Below, in pieces: positions 17,878 to 37,267 of a stretch of 38,646 bases of DNA. How positions within the stretch are numbered: the first letter of the stretch is position 1; each line of letters opens with the position of its first letter. Both the position numbers and the translations under genes were made by a program. Below the pieces are notes generated by a model that was given only the letters and a program-made list of their open reading frames with translations, was not told where the DNA came from and did not search any database. The DNA is from a virus: the IMG/VR virus record IMGVR_UViG_3300025324_000006, positions 1-38,646 of that record; one strand, 5' to 3'.

Positions 17878-18810
17878 CTACGACGGCTGACCCGTCGACA
17901 AGCCGGCCGGGTGATGAACGCCCAACCAGGCCAAGTTGGCCGACACCAGGGACTGGCCAGGGTTCGCCCCGACATCCTCGGCGACCGGGACGTAGCCGCC
18001 CATGACGCGGCCGTTGTTGTTGGCATGGCCGTTGAGCAGGACGTAGTTGACCGGGTGGTCGCTGTCCTCGTTCGGGCCGAACATGTGGCCCAACAGGCGC
18101 AGGTCGCGGAACGTGAGGTCAGCGCCGCCGCCAGAGCCGACGGCCTCGGCGAAGTGGGCCGTCTTGATGTTGTGGCTCTCGCAGCGGAGGAAGCGGTGCT
18201 GGCCGCTGGCTCCCCGGTCGGTGCCCTGGAGCACGACGGCCTTGTCCGCGTAGGCCAGTTCGCAGTCCTCGAAGCGGGCGAAGTCGCCCTTGCCCTTGGA
18301 GTCGGCGTCAATCTCGGCGACGGTGCCGGGGCCGATGAGGAGCGCGGTGCCCGTCTCCATGCCGACGGTGTCCTGGGCGGCTTCCAACTTGGCGCGGGCG
18401 GCGGTGAAGCGGCGGCCGGTCACGGTGAGGGCCGTGCCGGTGCCGGTGGCTGCGACGCCGATGGCGTCCAGGCTGACGTCGTCGGCGTGGACGATGAGGC
18501 CGTCCGAGTCCTCGTCTTGGGGGGCGATGCTGACGCTGCCCATGGGGCCGGCGGCGTGCATCTCCAGTCCGCGCAGGTTGCGCGTGATGGTGAGGACCTC
18601 GTCGTAGTCGCCTGGCGCGATGTGGATGGCGTCGGCGCCCATGGCGTCGTCGGCGCTGATGGCCAGGTCGAGGGCGTCCTCGATGGTCTTGCCTGCGTTC
18701 TCCCAGGACAAGCCGTTCGCGGGCAGCGCCGTGGAGCCGGTCTTGACGAGGAGGTTGCGGCCCGGTCGGAGTGGTTGGAGGTTGCGGCTGCGCTGCTCGG
18801 GGGTGGCCAT
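17878..18810 (-). CDS. Right-handed beta-helix protein, likely tail spike or virion-attached adhesin
   Basis: A 310-residue protein with a repeating pattern of short strands and turns typical of pectate-lyase-like beta helices: ADAIHIAPGDYDEVLTI, LRGLEMHAAGPMGSVSI, DGLIVHADDVSLDAIGV, KAVVLQGTDRG, ADLTFRDLRLLGHMFG, VNYVLLNGHANNNGRVMGG. The N-terminus (NLLVKTGSTALPANGLSWENAGKTIEDALDLA) matches the start of many such proteins (a G-W-A-K-T-I-Q-A-A type motif). It would bind surface glycans or other receptors. ATG 18810 was chosen. The same frame continues upstream through the hexanucleotide array to a GTG at 19101, which would add a Val-Arg repeat. Location between the terminase subunits is unusual for a spike. 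Confidence 0.7.
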   Translation of the reverse strand: MATPEQRSRNLQPLRPGRNLLVKTGSTALPANGLSWENAGKTIEDALDLAISADDAMGADAIHIAPGDYDEVLTITRNLRGLEMHAAGPMGSVSIAPQDEDSDGLIVHADDVSLDAIGVAATGTGTALTVTGRRFTAARAKLEAAQDTVGMETGTALLIGPGTVAEIDADSKGKGDFARFEDCELAYADKAVVLQGTDRGASGQHRFLRCESHNIKTAHFAEAVGSGGGADLTFRDLRLLGHMFGPNEDSDHPVNYVLLNGHANNNGRVMGGYVPVAEDVGANPGQSLVSANLAWLGVHHPAGLSTGQPS

Positions 18811-18866
18811 GGTGACGCCTCGATGTGACGAGCCGGCGGGTCGGCTTAAGCGCGTCGTATTGCTTA

Positions 18867-19088
18867 GGACCCGGACCTGGACCAGGACCCGGACCTGGAC
18901 CTGGACCAGGACACGGACCCGGACACGGACCTGGACACGGACCTGGACCCGGACCTGGACCAGGACACGGACCCGGACACGGACCTGGACACGGACCTGG
19001 ACACGGACCTGGACACGGACCTGGACACGGACCTGGACCCGGACCTGGACACGGACCTGGACCAGGACACGGACCCGGACACGGACCC
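18867..19088. repeat. Hexanucleotide array: 37 uninterrupted copies of GGACNN
   Basis: Thirty-seven consecutive six-base units of the form GGACNN, with NN being CT (13 copies), AC (12), CC (8) or CA (4), and no indels. A four-unit block (CA, AC, CC, AC) recurs three times, at units 7-10, 16-19 and 33-36. CT and AC alternate in units 20-28. The array lies between the stop of the 122-residue gene (19147) and the ATG of the beta-helix gene (18810). Several frames are open across it (Gly-Pro/His on plus; Val-Arg/Gln/Leu, Pro-Gly/Cys and Ser-x on minus). The 336-bp gap otherwise holds only short flanks without genes or clear promoter. Confidence 0.95.
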
Positions 19089-19146
19089 GTAGATTCCCCA
19101 CACCGCGCGTTCATTGGCAGCGGCGAGCAAGGTGGCGTTCGCCATG

Positions 19147-19515
19147 CTACACCTTGCACTCGCAGCAGTCCACGATGGCGCCGCGCGCCACGATGACGCG
19201 GCCCATCGGCTCGATGACGGTGGCCTTGCCGGACTTGAGGAAGGCGGCGAGGTCGCCCGTGTCGAACACGGTGCTCGCGCCTTCGAGGACGAGTTCCTGG
19301 GTGCCGACGAGGGCCAACTTGCCGACGAGGTGATAGGTGGCTTGGCGGATGTAGACGCCCTTGCCGATGAGGGCGACGTAGGGGTCGGCTCCGTAGAGGG
19401 CCTCTGACGGCGTCGCAGCGGACGGGGTGCCGCCGATGCCTGAGATGAGGGCATTGAGTTCGTTCTTCTGCTTGATGATGGCCTGGATGGCGGCCTGGGC
19501 GTCTTTCAGTTCCAT
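19147..19515 (-). CDS. Small protein, 122 residues, with own leader; unknown function
   Basis: The frame starts at ATG 19515 with a helix (MELKDAQAAIQAIIKQKNEL), then VALIGKGVYIRQATYHLVGKLALVGTQELVLEGASTVFDTGDLAAFLKSGKATVIEPMGRVIVARGAIVDCC. The second half is rich in short strands, like small beta-rich virion or SH3-like proteins, and ends in CCECKV. It heads a transcript with the shared hairpin leader (19517-19570). The next gene downstream, across the hexamer array, is the beta-helix gene. I do not recognise a family. Confidence 0.75.
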   Translation of the reverse strand: MELKDAQAAIQAIIKQKNELNALISGIGGTPSAATPSEALYGADPYVALIGKGVYIRQATYHLVGKLALVGTQELVLEGASTVFDTGDLAAFLKSGKATVIEPMGRVIVARGAIVDCCECKV

Positions 19516-19573: not shown

Positions 19574-20266
19574 TTAAGCCGAGGATGGCACCGGCTCGAC
19601 CACTGGAGGAGTGGCGTCATGGCTCGGTGCATCCGTCCCCTCCGGTGAGGCCTGTGAGCGTCGGCGCAGCCGCTCGGCGTAAGCGGAGCGCAGGTCGTCC
19701 ACGATGACGCCATGGCTGACGTGGACGTGGTCCGTCTCGACGCCACGCGCCAGGCGTTCCAGTTCGGCGGCCGACTTGAAGGCGGGCATGACCTCCTTGA
19801 TGAGGACGGCCCACGCCATCGGCGAGAGGTCCTGGAGTTCATCCAGGCTCCGGCCGCTCTGCTTCTCCAATGCCTCGAAGATAGGGCGCAGCCCCGCTTG
19901 AACCGTCATGGCGTCGCGGGCCTGGCGCTCGGCCATCTTGACCACTTCGGCCTCCTGCGCGGCTCGGCGCTTGTTGTCGAGGTGGCGGTCCCACTCGACG
20001 GTGCGGCGAACCCACGACCAGGTGCTCGACCATTCCTCCAGCACGCGGTCATAGCCCGCGACTTTGCCGAGCGCCTCCCGCGTCGCCTCCAGGGTGCGGG
20101 CGGTGCCGGCGTCCCGGTAGGTCTTAAAGGCTTCCCAGGCGACGTCGCTTTCGCCGTCTTGACGGTAGAAGATTGGACTGATGAGGGGTTTGCGGTCCAC
20201 TGGAAGTCCATGGGTGTATAGGTGGTTTGGGCTTATGTAGTTGCCACGAGCGGCGTTTTGCTCCAT
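19574..20266 (-). CDS. Terminase small subunit (probable)
   Basis: About 230 residues. The sequence reads DVAWEAFKTYRDAGTARTLE, VAGYDRVLEEWSSTWSWVRR and TVEWDRHLDNKRRAAQEAEVVKM. This matches small terminases in which a DNA-binding helix-turn-helix (YRD.G..RTLE....LG) is followed by W...W.WV.R...WD..LD. A helical oligomerisation region and an acidic Pro-rich tail (SQASPEGTDAPSHDATPP) follow. It binds viral DNA and hands it to the large subunit. ATG 20266 overlaps the end of the DHH gene by 34 bp. A later GTG is possible. Confidence 0.75.
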   Translation of the reverse strand: MEQNAARGNYISPNHLYTHGLPVDRKPLISPIFYRQDGESDVAWEAFKTYRDAGTARTLEATREALGKVAGYDRVLEEWSSTWSWVRRTVEWDRHLDNKRRAAQEAEVVKMAERQARDAMTVQAGLRPIFEALEKQSGRSLDELQDLSPMAWAVLIKEVMPAFKSAAELERLARGVETDHVHVSHGVIVDDLRSAYAERLRRRSQASPEGTDAPSHDATPPVVEPVPSSA

Positions 20267-21096
20267 GGGAGTTGGTCGACGTTGGCGCCCGAAGCGTTCC
20301 GGTGGCCACCCCCGCCGAAGGTCTTGGCGATGCTTGAGCAGTCCAGGTCGCCGACGGTGCGGAACGACAACGCCCACTTGCCCGTCGCAGACATGTAGTA
20401 GGTGATGCCCAAGGCAGGGCGCCCCTGGTCGGCGTTCTTCTTCGCCAACACGTTCGCCACGTCGGAGCACAGGAAGAAGGGCACGTTGCTCGCCCAACAG
20501 ACCGTCCCATCGGGCAGGGTGACCTCATGTGCGAACTCGACGCTCTGCGCGACTTGGATGGTCTTGAAGCGCGAGATGGCCACGCCCTCCGCGAGCAAGG
20601 AGCCGGGGTCAGCCAGGGCGAGAAGGCCCGTGACCTCGACGGTCGAAGGGAACGACCGGACGGCCTCCATGAGGTGCTTGGTGTCGCGCAGGGCGAACCG
20701 CCAGAGGTCGTTGTCCTCGACCGTGTTGACGAGCCACGGACGGGCCTGGCCGACGTGGAAGTGGTCCCACGCGATGCCGGCGCCAGAGCGGTTCATGTCG
20801 AACACGACCATCAGGTTCGGAGCCTCCAAGCCCGCGAGGTCGGCTTGCGCGGTCTTGTGGTGGTCGAGGACCGTGACCGTGCGCGCCTCGGCAAGCATCT
20901 TGTCGAGGTCGGCGCGGACAGGGCAGATGTCCACGAACACGACGTCGCGGCCTTGGAGGTCGGCGAGAGGGAATGGCTTGCCGTGCATGGCGGGCCGCAG
21001 TTCGGCGTCGGGGTGGGCCTGGACGACGGCCCAGGCGGCAGTCATTCCGTCGTTGCATGGCGTGTGGTGGATGACCACGAGGGGGGTGTCTGGCAT
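20233..21096 (-). CDS. DHH/DHHA1-family phosphoesterase
   Basis: A 287-residue member of the DHH superfamily, which hydrolyses oligonucleotides or cyclic dinucleotides with two Mn ions. Motifs: HHTPCNDGMTAAW (10-22) as motif I, VFVDICPV (53-60) as motif II, LDHHKTAQ (77-84) as the DHH motif, SGAGIAW and NTVEDNDLW as motif IV region, and a C-terminal FGGGGHRNASG that is diagnostic of the DHHA1 RNA-binding domain. It could degrade nanoRNA or a signalling nucleotide such as c-di-AMP or a CBASS-type messenger, which is inference. ATG 21096 has AGGTCACACC before it and a GCAA-loop hairpin at 21107-21120. Confidence 0.9.
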   Translation of the reverse strand: MPDTPLVVIHHTPCNDGMTAAWAVVQAHPDAELRPAMHGKPFPLADLQGRDVVFVDICPVRADLDKMLAEARTVTVLDHHKTAQADLAGLEAPNLMVVFDMNRSGAGIAWDHFHVGQARPWLVNTVEDNDLWRFALRDTKHLMEAVRSFPSTVEVTGLLALADPGSLLAEGVAISRFKTIQVAQSVEFAHEVTLPDGTVCWASNVPFFLCSDVANVLAKKNADQGRPALGITYYMSATGKWALSFRTVGDLDCSSIAKTFGGGGHRNASGANVDQLPWSKTPLVATT

Positions 21097-21106
21097 GGTG
21101 TGACCT

Positions 21107-21120
21107 TCCCCTTGCGGGGA
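21107..21120 (-). promoter_or_regulatory. Leader hairpin TCCCC-GCAA-GGGGA before the DHH gene
   Basis: A perfect 5-bp stem closed by a GCAA (GNRA) tetraloop lies 10 bp before the DHH ATG and immediately after a tRNA-like segment. The same loop occurs in hairpins before the genes starting at 19515, 27202 and 30377, also followed by a CACACC motif. It may affect mRNA stability or serve as a protein-binding site. Confidence 0.6.
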
Positions 21121-21189
21121 GTGCCAGGCCGAGAGTCGAACTCGGACCATCCCCTCATGGCGGAGGACGAACCAGCCGTGGTCCTGGCG
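21121..21189 (-). other. tRNA-like element, possibly degenerate tRNA-Met(CAT)
   Basis: On the minus strand this 69-base segment has a tRNA-like layout. It has a 6-bp acceptor stem (GCCAGG/CCTGGC), a short D-like stem ACG/CGT with a GG-containing loop, an anticodon-like arm CCTCC-GCCATGA-GGGGA with CAT at the anticodon place, and a perfect T arm CCGAG-TTCGACT-CTCGG. Faults: a C instead of T before the anticodon, a mismatch in the anticodon stem, a first acceptor pair that does not match, and no encoded CCA. It may be a decayed tRNA gene, a tRNA mimic or a processing signal for the DHH mRNA. Confidence 0.45.
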
Positions 21190-35159: not shown

Positions 35160-35789
35160 CTAGGTGTTCGTGATGACGTGCTCCTCTGAAATACCATCCG
35201 ATGCTGATTCCTCCAACGTATCTGACTCCCCCAGGAGGAGGACTTCCGTGAGGCCCTCAAAGTCGTCCAAGAGCGTCATGGCAGTCCCCTGGTCAAAGAG
35301 GAGGACCTCCACAGGGAACTCAACGCACCCCCCATCAATGGGAATGACTTGCCCCGTGATGTCGTTGGCGCCCCCCTCCGTGTCGTCCGGCGCGGGCTCC
35401 AGGGCTACGACGTCCAGGGCGACGGCGCCAACGCCTTCCCCGTACACGATGCCGATGCCTAGCGTCGTCAAAGAAATAGTCTTCGAGGCCGCATTGAAGT
35501 ACAATTCGTTGGGCGCATCCGGCGCCTGGAGCGTCCACGTCGCCACCCTCAGACTGGCCCTCACAGTGTGCAGTCTCGTAGCCCTAGCGGTAGCCGGACC
35601 GATGAAGCGAAACCTGAACGCGTACACGGGCAAATCACGGCCCACGACGTGCTTGCGCGCCAAGGCATGCAAGCGAGCCACTTGCTGCACGCGCACGGCC
35701 TGGTCGGCCTTCATCGTCAAGGGCTCAACGATGACCTTGACCGTCGCGGTGTCGAGGTCGCTGCCGGAGACGCGCCAGGAATCCGTCAT
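35160..35789 (-). CDS. Tail accessory protein, 209 residues, paralog of the fibre C-terminus
   Basis: Residues 3-135 (SWRVSGSDLDTATVKVIVEP..., FRFRFIGPATARAT, TLQAPDAPNELYFNAASKTI) match the last 135 residues of the next upstream protein. It is a beta-sandwich-like module that is probably the distal end of a fibre. Residues 140-209 are an added acidic region ending EESASDGISEEHVITNT, shared with the small protein at 34943. ATG 35789 overlaps the upstream stop (ATGA). Tandem duplication with new C-termini would let the virus carry alternative tips. Confidence 0.75.
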   Translation of the reverse strand: MTDSWRVSGSDLDTATVKVIVEPLTMKADQAVRVQQVARLHALARKHVVGRDLPVYAFRFRFIGPATARATRLHTVRASLRVATWTLQAPDAPNELYFNAASKTISLTTLGIGIVYGEGVGAVALDVVALEPAPDDTEGGANDITGQVIPIDGGCVEFPVEVLLFDQGTAMTLLDDFEGLTEVLLLGESDTLEESASDGISEEHVITNT

Positions 35790-37267
35790 TCGACCTCAGT
35801 CGCATTGATGGCCACGCCGACCTCCCCGACGCCGTAGGAGTACTCAGTGCTGGCGCTGTCGAAGGACAACGTGAGGGTCTTGCTGGCGTCGTTGAAGTAC
35901 AATTCGTTGGGGGCATCTGGGGCCTGGAGCGTGATTGGGTCCACTGATAGGAAGGCGTCCTTGAGGGCCTTGAGCGCAGTGTACCGGGCGGGGGCGGGGC
36001 CGATGAAGCGGAACTTGATGCTCCACTTCGTCAAATCCTCCCCGAGCCCGTGTTGGATTGGTAAGCCGTGGAGGCGGTTCGCGGTTTGCTTGCGTACGCT
36101 CTTGCCGGCGGTGGGGCCGGGCTCCACGATGACCTTCACCGTGTCCGTGTCAAGGTCGATGCCGTCTAGGCGCCAGGACCCATTGGAGATTGTCTCCACG
36201 TTGTCCATGGTTGGCGTGCCCGTCGCGGCGGCGATGAGGCTCTTGAAGATGCGCTTGATGATGCCCGCGATGCCGGTGGCGACGGCCATAATGGACTTCG
36301 CGAGGGCCTTCCCGATTGTCGCCGTGCCCGTGGCTACGGCAGTCAGTGGCTTCTGCACCTGCTTTAGGAGGGAGGCTGTGCCGGTAGCGACGGCTGACAG
36401 CGTGCGCGTGATGACGCTAAGCAACGCCAGGGTGGCCGTCCCAGTCGCGACCGCTGAGGCCGCCATGCCAACCTGCTTCACCATGGAAGCAACGCCAGCC
36501 CCCATGGCGGATAGTACCCGAGAAAAGATGAGGCCCTCCGCCATGAATGCCGTCACGACCGCCGTGGCGGCCATCACCCTGAACAGGCTAGATGCCCTGG
36601 CCATGGTTGCCACACCTGACCCCGTCACTGTCAGTGGGCGTTGGAAGGCTTGCTGGTACTCGATGATGACGTAACCGTTTGCGCCCTGCCCGAGCGCGCC
36701 GCTTACGCCTGCGCCACGCCCCCCACCGCCGCCGCCACGAACGGACCCGTTGTTCCCTGGCTCCCCGATGCCGCCGCCATTGCCACCGTTGCCGCCACCC
36801 GTTGCGGTCCCAGTGCCGCCGGTTGGGGTCGAGCCGTTTCCGCCAGCGCCACCCGTACCAGCCCCACCACCGCCGCCGCCAGCAACCCCCGACACACCAG
36901 TACCGCCAGTGCCGCCATTCCTGCCCCCTGAGCCGGCTCCACCCGCCCCTCCCGCCCCACTGGCTGTGATAGCGGCGATGCCTCCATTCGATAGGCCAGC
37001 CACGGTGGCGCCGTTCTGGACCCAAGAGTTTCCTCCATTCTCGTCTGGCGTGTCGCCGCCGAGGCCAACGTGAACGTCCCAGACTTGACCCTCAGATGCC
37101 GCCTGGGTCGCGACGGCACACCCGCCACCGCCACCACCGCCCCCTCCAGTGGTGAGGGAGGCACTACCTATGCCGCCGCCTGCGATAGTAGTGACGTTGA
37201 ACGACGTGACGCCTTCCGGGACAGTCCAAGTGCCGTCCGCCGTGAACGTCACGACGTGAAGCGTCAC
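35786..37267 (-). CDS. Glycine-rich tail adhesin with tandem 18-residue repeats
   Basis: A 493-residue protein. Residues 1-45 (VVTFTADGTWTVPEGVTSFNVTTIAGGGIG) match the start of phage glycine-rich domains. Residues 30-200 are Gly-rich (about half Gly), like the polyglycine layers of T4 gp38-type adhesins that contact the receptor. Residues 210-354 hold about eight degenerate 18-20-residue repeats with the consensus AVATGTA...K...KSL. The last 135 residues form a beta domain shared with the next gene. It is the best receptor-binding candidate and would be mounted at the tail tip after the hub. ATG 37267 follows the upstream stop by 9 bp. Confidence 0.8.
   Translation of the reverse strand: MTLHVVTFTADGTWTVPEGVTSFNVTTIAGGGIGSASLTTGGGGGGGGGCAVATQAASEGQVWDVHVGLGGDTPDENGGNSWVQNGATVAGLSNGGIAAITASGAGGAGGAGSGGRNGGTGGTGVSGVAGGGGGGAGTGGAGGNGSTPTGGTGTATGGGNGGNGGGIGEPGNNGSVRGGGGGGRGAGVSGALGQGANGYVIIEYQQAFQRPLTVTGSGVATMARASSLFRVMAATAVVTAFMAEGLIFSRVLSAMGAGVASMVKQVGMAASAVATGTATLALLSVITRTLSAVATGTASLLKQVQKPLTAVATGTATIGKALAKSIMAVATGIAGIIKRIFKSLIAAATGTPTMDNVETISNGSWRLDGIDLDTDTVKVIVEPGPTAGKSVRKQTANRLHGLPIQHGLGEDLTKWSIKFRFIGPAPARYTALKALKDAFLSVDPITLQAPDAPNELYFNDASKTLTLSFDSASTEYSYGVGEVGVAINATEVE
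36206..36640 (-). repeat. Coding repeats: about eight units of 18-20 residues in the adhesin
   Basis: Residues 210-354 of the adhesin repeat a pattern such as RTLSAVATGTASLLKQVQ, KPLTAVATGTATIGKALA and KSIMAVATGIAGIIKRIF. The later units are exactly 18 residues, so the DNA has a 54-bp period. Repeats of this sort form extended helices or spirals in fibre shafts, and change in copy number would alter fibre length. Confidence 0.75.

Follow-up and report, generated by a model that had tools for sequence, protein, structure and literature searches.

A phage hexanucleotide array read as the body of a small X-Ser protein gene, and its pairing with the gene for a predicted Sm/LSm-fold protein

What is a perfectly spaced run of hexanucleotides doing among the terminase genes of a phage, and does it act as a DNA site, as an extension of a neighbouring gene or as a gene of its own? 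The window, by which we mean the whole stretch of 38,646 nucleotides analysed here, is a tailed-phage contig whose minus strand carries genes for the terminase, portal, head and tail. TRF detected a single tandem array in it, 222 bp long and formed by 37 GGACNN units with zero indels (last two bases CT in 13 units, AC in 12, CC in eight and CA in four), in which the block CA-AC-CC-AC is present three times; our recount agrees with the initial annotation on the length, the number and kinds of units and the recurrence of this block. Elsewhere in the window, no other run of at least four GGACNN or GTCCNN units was found.

The array and its reading frame in the window

The reading frames given for the array in the initial annotation are correct, but the list omitted the third minus frame, NNG-TCC, which is the one used according to the relatives described below. 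In this frame the unit reads as an alternation of a variable residue X with Ser, (Gly/Val/Arg/Trp-Ser)37, with Arg at 13, Val at 12, Gly at eight and Trp at four of the X positions; the 12 Val residues are unusual in comparison with the relatives. The ORF, which we designate XS, has a leader of 19 residues followed by the 37 X-Ser dipeptides, and a TAA lies directly at the array end. Its ATG begins one base beyond the stop codon of the gene upstream, P0003, and 4 nt from where that stop codon begins (Table 1). A promoter scan found none. Judged from the sequence and from the relatives, the array almost certainly codes, in the X-Ser frame, for the main part of a small protein.

As previously noted, the array precedes a beta-helix-like ORF, but the gene on its other side, P0003, was the more informative neighbour. 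Further upstream is a DHH/DHHA1 phosphoesterase-like gene; the DHH/DHHA1 family includes nanoRNases, of possible relevance to RNA handling. Far from the array, the product of a gene at 35786-37267 (minus strand) contains a glycine-rich domain (Pfam Gly_rich_2, E 6e-9).

Table 1. Features of the window around the array (positions in the window; all on the minus strand)
Feature	Position	Strand	Basis
P0003, predicted Sm/LSm-fold protein gene, 122 aa, first of the pair	19147..19515	-	profile relatives, AlphaFold, PDB matches, Arg-Gly
Junction TAG-C-ATG: Sm-gene stop 19149-19147, one base, A of the XS start	19145..19149	-	sequence
Putative XS gene, 93 aa: ATG 19145-19143, TAA 18866-18864	18864..19145	-	sequence, ORF list, 151/153 relatives
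XS leader MANATLLAAANERAVWGIY, family-2-like by charge and position	19089..19145	-	leader comparison
Hexanucleotide array, 37 units, probable coding body of XS	18867..19088	-	TRF and unit count
Beta-helix-like ORF, downstream, outside the pair	17878..18810	-	no family match
Small terminase subunit, upstream neighbour, outside the pair	19574..20266	-	phrog_6299, E 5e-17
DHH/DHHA1 phosphoesterase-like protein, two genes upstream of the Sm gene	20233..21150	-	DHHA1, E 2e-6

XS genes next to genes for predicted Sm/LSm-fold proteins

Scanning IMG/VR with the degenerate unit GGACMN gave 61 array stretches. The heterogeneous arrays at loci L009, L012, L050, L052, L056 and L058 each directly follow a small gene of one family, to which P0003 also belongs, and in these loci an ATG at or near the stop codon of the small gene opens the X-Ser frame. 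The arrays at L041 and L015/L024 are also heterogeneous, yet have no visible gene of this family. Homogeneous GGACNN arrays from the same scan were set aside as ordinary low-complexity repeats. At L056, the small gene upstream of the array looks frameshifted mid-gene, by sequencing error or decay. A profile built from four of the small proteins gave 129 relatives in viral contigs, and one built from P0003 and the proteins of L012 and L056 gave 215; the family as a whole counts over 300 relatives from uncultured phages and divides into two subfamilies (hereafter family 1 and family 2) that are related to each other (hhalign probability 97, E 1e-10).

Structure prediction suggests what these proteins may be. 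AlphaFold models were obtained with a pLDDT of 93.2 for family 1 and of 88.3 for P0003, and the short N-terminal helix and strongly bent five-strand barrel by which the Sm fold is recognised are present in the models. The lists of PDB matches for both models are headed by archaeal, yeast and human Sm/LSm proteins, with a Foldseek probability of 1.00 against SmAP1, LSm and Sm chains and, for the family 1 model, a VIA Z of about 10; nearly all of the 50 best PDB matches of the P0003 model are Sm/LSm proteins or complexes containing an LSm-fold subunit. A PDB sequence search with both subfamily profiles gave nothing convincing, and the assignment rests on fold comparison; no convincing PHROG or Pfam family was found for the relatives, and the family had no match in NCBIfam at its cut-off. 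From the models, P0003 and its relatives are predicted to be Sm/LSm-fold proteins. RNA binding is not assured, since the uridine-pocket Asn of the Sm1 motif seems absent (at this column, placed by eye, family 2 has Leu/Ile and family 1 has Val) and since family 1 lacks the Arg-Gly of the Sm2 motif; in P0003 this is R111-G112, and it is conserved in 85% of family 2. Hfq is likewise without the uridine-pocket Asn.

The association between the two genes was examined from both sides. Our comparison set consisted of the best 80 loci per subfamily, L074 and the window, and in 153 of these the sequence continued for 80 nt or more beyond the Sm gene. An X-Ser ORF follows in 151 of the 153, of which 149 were scored and the remaining two (L138 and L173) have visible arrays cut by the contig end; the only relatives with no XS gene, L198 and L227, belong to one subgroup. 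Starting from the arrays, scans with the patterns NGGTCG and NGGTCT gave at least 120 matches each, and 200 loci were examined. A Sm gene was found within 1.5 kb upstream and on the same strand in 123 of them, and directly downstream in about eight; 34 loci were cut by contig ends and 12 had no X-Ser frame recognised by a regular expression. About 85% of the evaluable arrays among these 200 loci adjoin a Sm gene. The pairing is not absolute, given L198 and L227 on the one side and some arrays with no nearby Sm gene on the other, but the two genes probably form a cassette.

The junction between the genes is tight. Among the best 80 loci per subfamily, the start codon of XS overlaps the Sm stop codon as ATGA in 56, and in 34 others the distance from the first base of the stop to the ATG is 2-4 nt, as in the window. 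From these stop/start overlaps we expect, with good confidence, that XS is co-translated with the Sm gene. The leaders of XS in family 1 are basic (mean net charge +4.0), and those in family 2 are MNAAILRxG[FY][DE]-like (mean net charge +0.3), a type that the leader in the window fits only loosely. The type of leader follows the Sm subfamily, which hints that the leader may be in contact with the Sm protein. The deposited record MW202825.1 (L074) carries an Illumina-adapter-like stretch, AGATCGGAAGAGCGTCGTGTAGGGAAAGAGTGT, about 0.4 kb after the Sm gene and directly after two XS-like segments, which is likely contamination or misassembly.

These loci also bear on two readings that we regard, taken together, as having next to no probability: that the array is a variable N-terminal extension of the beta-helix spike, as had been suggested with phase variation in mind, or that it is an assembly artefact. 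In the window, the Val-Arg/Gln/Leu frame does run without a stop from a GTG at 19101 through to the beta-helix ORF. However, the arrays of the relatives follow the Sm-like gene, the genes downstream of them differ widely and the X-Ser frame usually stops near the array end, for which reasons the extension was rejected; phase variation was rejected because gain or loss of 6-bp units leaves the frame unchanged. As for an artefact, short-read assembly of repeats is error-prone and the contigs of many relatives end inside their arrays, but about 150 contigs (the best 80 per subfamily, L074 and the window) share the arrangement.

The pair was found in hundreds of uncultured phage contigs and, as far as we searched, has no prior description or family name; in the open-access literature neither family was found described, nor was their pairing, though preprints and subscription papers may contain a description. 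Relatives are present in two of 50,697 deposited phage records, both assembled from Manatee Spring; P0003 itself gave no match to these records. Plasmid records gave no match in a search with family 2, and the pair was absent from all of the roughly 940 genomes sampled across three bacterial phyla (positive control, 5/5). A scan of the contigs of host genomes for the DNA array gave matches in four organisms, mutually unrelated. The large terminase subunit of the window (TerL, P0001) had no relatives in viral contigs and weak matches to phage records; because the search of viral contigs was empty, no close whole-phage relative was available for comparison. The pair lies between the terminase subunits in the window and in other genome regions in the relatives. 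No conserved third partner gene was found, with no cluster of neighbours in more than eight loci. ORFs that by eye resemble methyltransferase, YqaJ and RecT/ERF genes are found beside the pair in some loci, suggesting an early-gene setting in some phages.

Composition and turnover of the repeats

If the array is coding, its relatives should reveal at which level it is constrained. In the 149 scored arrays of the comparison set, the dominant Ser codon is TCG in 70, TCT in 33, AGC in 26, TCA in 17, TCC in two and AGT in one, with a mean purity within arrays of 0.96. The TCN and AGY classes of Ser codons are unconnected by any single base change, and on the trees of the Sm proteins at least eight switches between them are found in one subfamily and at least 14 in the other (at least 22 in total). 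The X positions are dominated by Gly (1312), Arg (1204) and Trp (1087), which together account for 88% of the units, and all three residues are present in 139 of the 149 arrays. Of 144 cases, 131 have a start codon no more than about 25 codons upstream in the X-Ser frame, versus 22 and 53 in the other two frames, and the median distance from the array to the stop codon is two codons in the X-Ser frame versus 16 and 15 in the others. The frame-specific constraint that had been proposed as a mark of coding is thus present in the relatives, in the NNG-TCC frame rather than in the frames initially listed. A Gly-Pro/Cys-Pro frame, with Pro varying synonymously, was also considered; the changes of Ser codon in the relatives give other residues there, and the X-Ser frame agrees better with the start and stop codons.

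A replication, packaging or protein-binding site at the DNA or RNA level, another of the initial suggestions, could account for the perfect 6-bp spacing, for the position of the array between the terminase subunits in the window and for the somewhat better folding of its minus-strand RNA in comparison with shuffled sequences (z -3.0). It was rejected because the relatives, in other genome regions, change the DNA unit wholly and keep the X-Ser protein pattern; every frame-specific test, moreover, favours the X-Ser frame, and we consider a non-coding element extremely improbable.

Within an array, Gly is usually encoded by GGG, Trp by TGG and Arg by either AGG or CGG; most X codons are NGG. A second reading, in which the product is irrelevant and the NGG arrays slow ribosomes or cause peptidyl-tRNA drop-off, tuning expression, draws on this usage and on the suppressive effect reported for 5′ NGG codons through such drop-off (PMC12204400). 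A trap of this kind could dispense with any of the four NGG codons, yet in all of the 132 arrays with exactly three NGG codons (best 80 loci per subfamily) the absent one is AGG or CGG, never GGG or TGG. That the missing codon is always one for Arg fits selection for Arg, Gly and Trp; selection for a DNA motif, or for NGG codons as such, would not predict it. In addition, Ser is retained through the switches of codon class, the leaders show conservation and duplication involves entire XS genes, which makes the trap very unlikely. The preference for NGG would follow from Trp having TGG as its single codon, from which a change of the first base alone gives Arg or Gly. Taken as a whole, the codon patterns point to selection acting on the protein, for Arg, Gly and Trp alternating with Ser.

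The repeats themselves turn over rapidly. Sm genes that are 94-100% identical between phages are followed by arrays that nevertheless differ in length and order (as in L085/L086, with 18 versus 10 units, L137/L144 and L112/L128), and arrays are nearly homogeneous within one phage. These observations bear out the early view of the array as recently expanded or actively maintained. Errors of short-read assembly may contribute to the differences but cannot produce the whole pattern. XS genes also multiply: three are found in tandem at L412, one precedes the Sm gene at L277, and in the most extreme expansion observed (L357, 5218-8955 in reverse-complement coordinates) a run of eight XS genes comes after the Sm gene and, beyond two other ORFs, a further six; of these 14, nearly all have [MV]ITKR or something close to it as leader, and the majority overlap the neighbouring gene by 4 nt. 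Duplication thus occurs at the level of the gene, with leader-plus-repeat units duplicated whole.

Possible roles of the pair and comparison with known systems

How might the two products act? We propose that the first gene would provide a Sm/LSm-fold protein and the second, starting at or next to its stop codon, a leader with an (X-Ser)n tail. The repeats would grow and shrink by slippage or recombination and be homogenised in each phage, selection keeping the protein pattern. XS would be disordered, positively charged and multivalent, with Arg and Trp as stickers and Gly and Ser as spacers, and, with the Sm protein, may act on RNA or another nucleic acid, gathering or shielding it in an RNP assembly or condensate during infection. 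This mode of action is the weakest step of the explanation, and we hold it tentatively, as somewhat short of probable. The fuller idea that the phages possess their own minimal RNP-assembly system, in which the Sm protein and a co-translated, hypervariable (Arg/Gly/Trp-Ser)n protein build a nucleic-acid-rich condensate, is possible but rather doubtful; such a system would be a prokaryotic-virus analogue of the Sm core with RS/RGG tails, sometimes with more than 10 XS copies in tandem.

The main rival to a partnership with the Sm protein is that XS, as a multivalent and disordered protein rich in Arg and Trp, is a bait in counter-defence or host takeover, titrating a host protein with nucleic-acid- or Trp-binding pockets in an arms race to which the Sm protein is accessory. 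The fast turnover of arrays beside a conserved neighbour gene, the presence of up to 14 XS paralogues in a single phage and the small size of the genes, in apparent early regions at the loci with the neighbours named above, are all compatible with a bait. However, PADLOC models matched neither the tested Sm relatives nor the XS protein of the window, the order of the repeats seems free, pointing to bulk composition rather than to specific recognition, and the near-constant pairing with a Sm-fold gene points to a joint task. We therefore consider a host-directed bait unlikely and retain a joint action with the Sm protein as the working explanation.

Whichever applies, XS is a clear and testable example of selection on an amino-acid grammar in a virus of prokaryotes, its sequence turning over freely and its composition being kept. 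It also extends the connection between the Sm fold and low-complexity partners beyond eukaryotes. A phage array of simple sequence can, as here, be a gene and not a site; such arrays also break metagenome assemblies, many contigs ending within them, which is a warning for their study. L198 and L227, with a Sm gene and no XS, are useful natural controls.

Compared with contingency loci, XS shares short tandem repeats of quickly changing number, but its unit spans two codons and never shifts the frame, and the units are mixed (R/G/W) and not identical. With Sm/LSm proteins, archaeal SmAPs and bacterial Hfq, the P0003 family shares the same Sm fold by model comparison, and family 2 retains the Sm2 Arg-Gly; it differs in having no family match at the sequence level, in the apparent loss of the uridine-pocket Asn, and in being phage-encoded, with a low-complexity partner gene in place of a tail of its own. 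The structure of one phage-type Sm-like protein, of putative cyanophage origin, has been solved (PDB 3BY7). Eukaryotic SR and other low-complexity proteins associate with Sm-fold proteins in the spliceosome, and some form condensates. Like the SR and the RGG/aromatic proteins, XS combines Arg and aromatic residues with Gly and Ser as spacers, but the X-Ser alternation is strict, Trp is used rather than Tyr or Phe, and XS is a separate small protein. A definition of SR proteins by an RRM plus an RS domain does not cover XS, which consists of leader and X-Ser repeats, with no RRM or other folded domain, and in which Arg makes up about one-third of X. The resemblance is one of possible working, with no claim of membership or homology.
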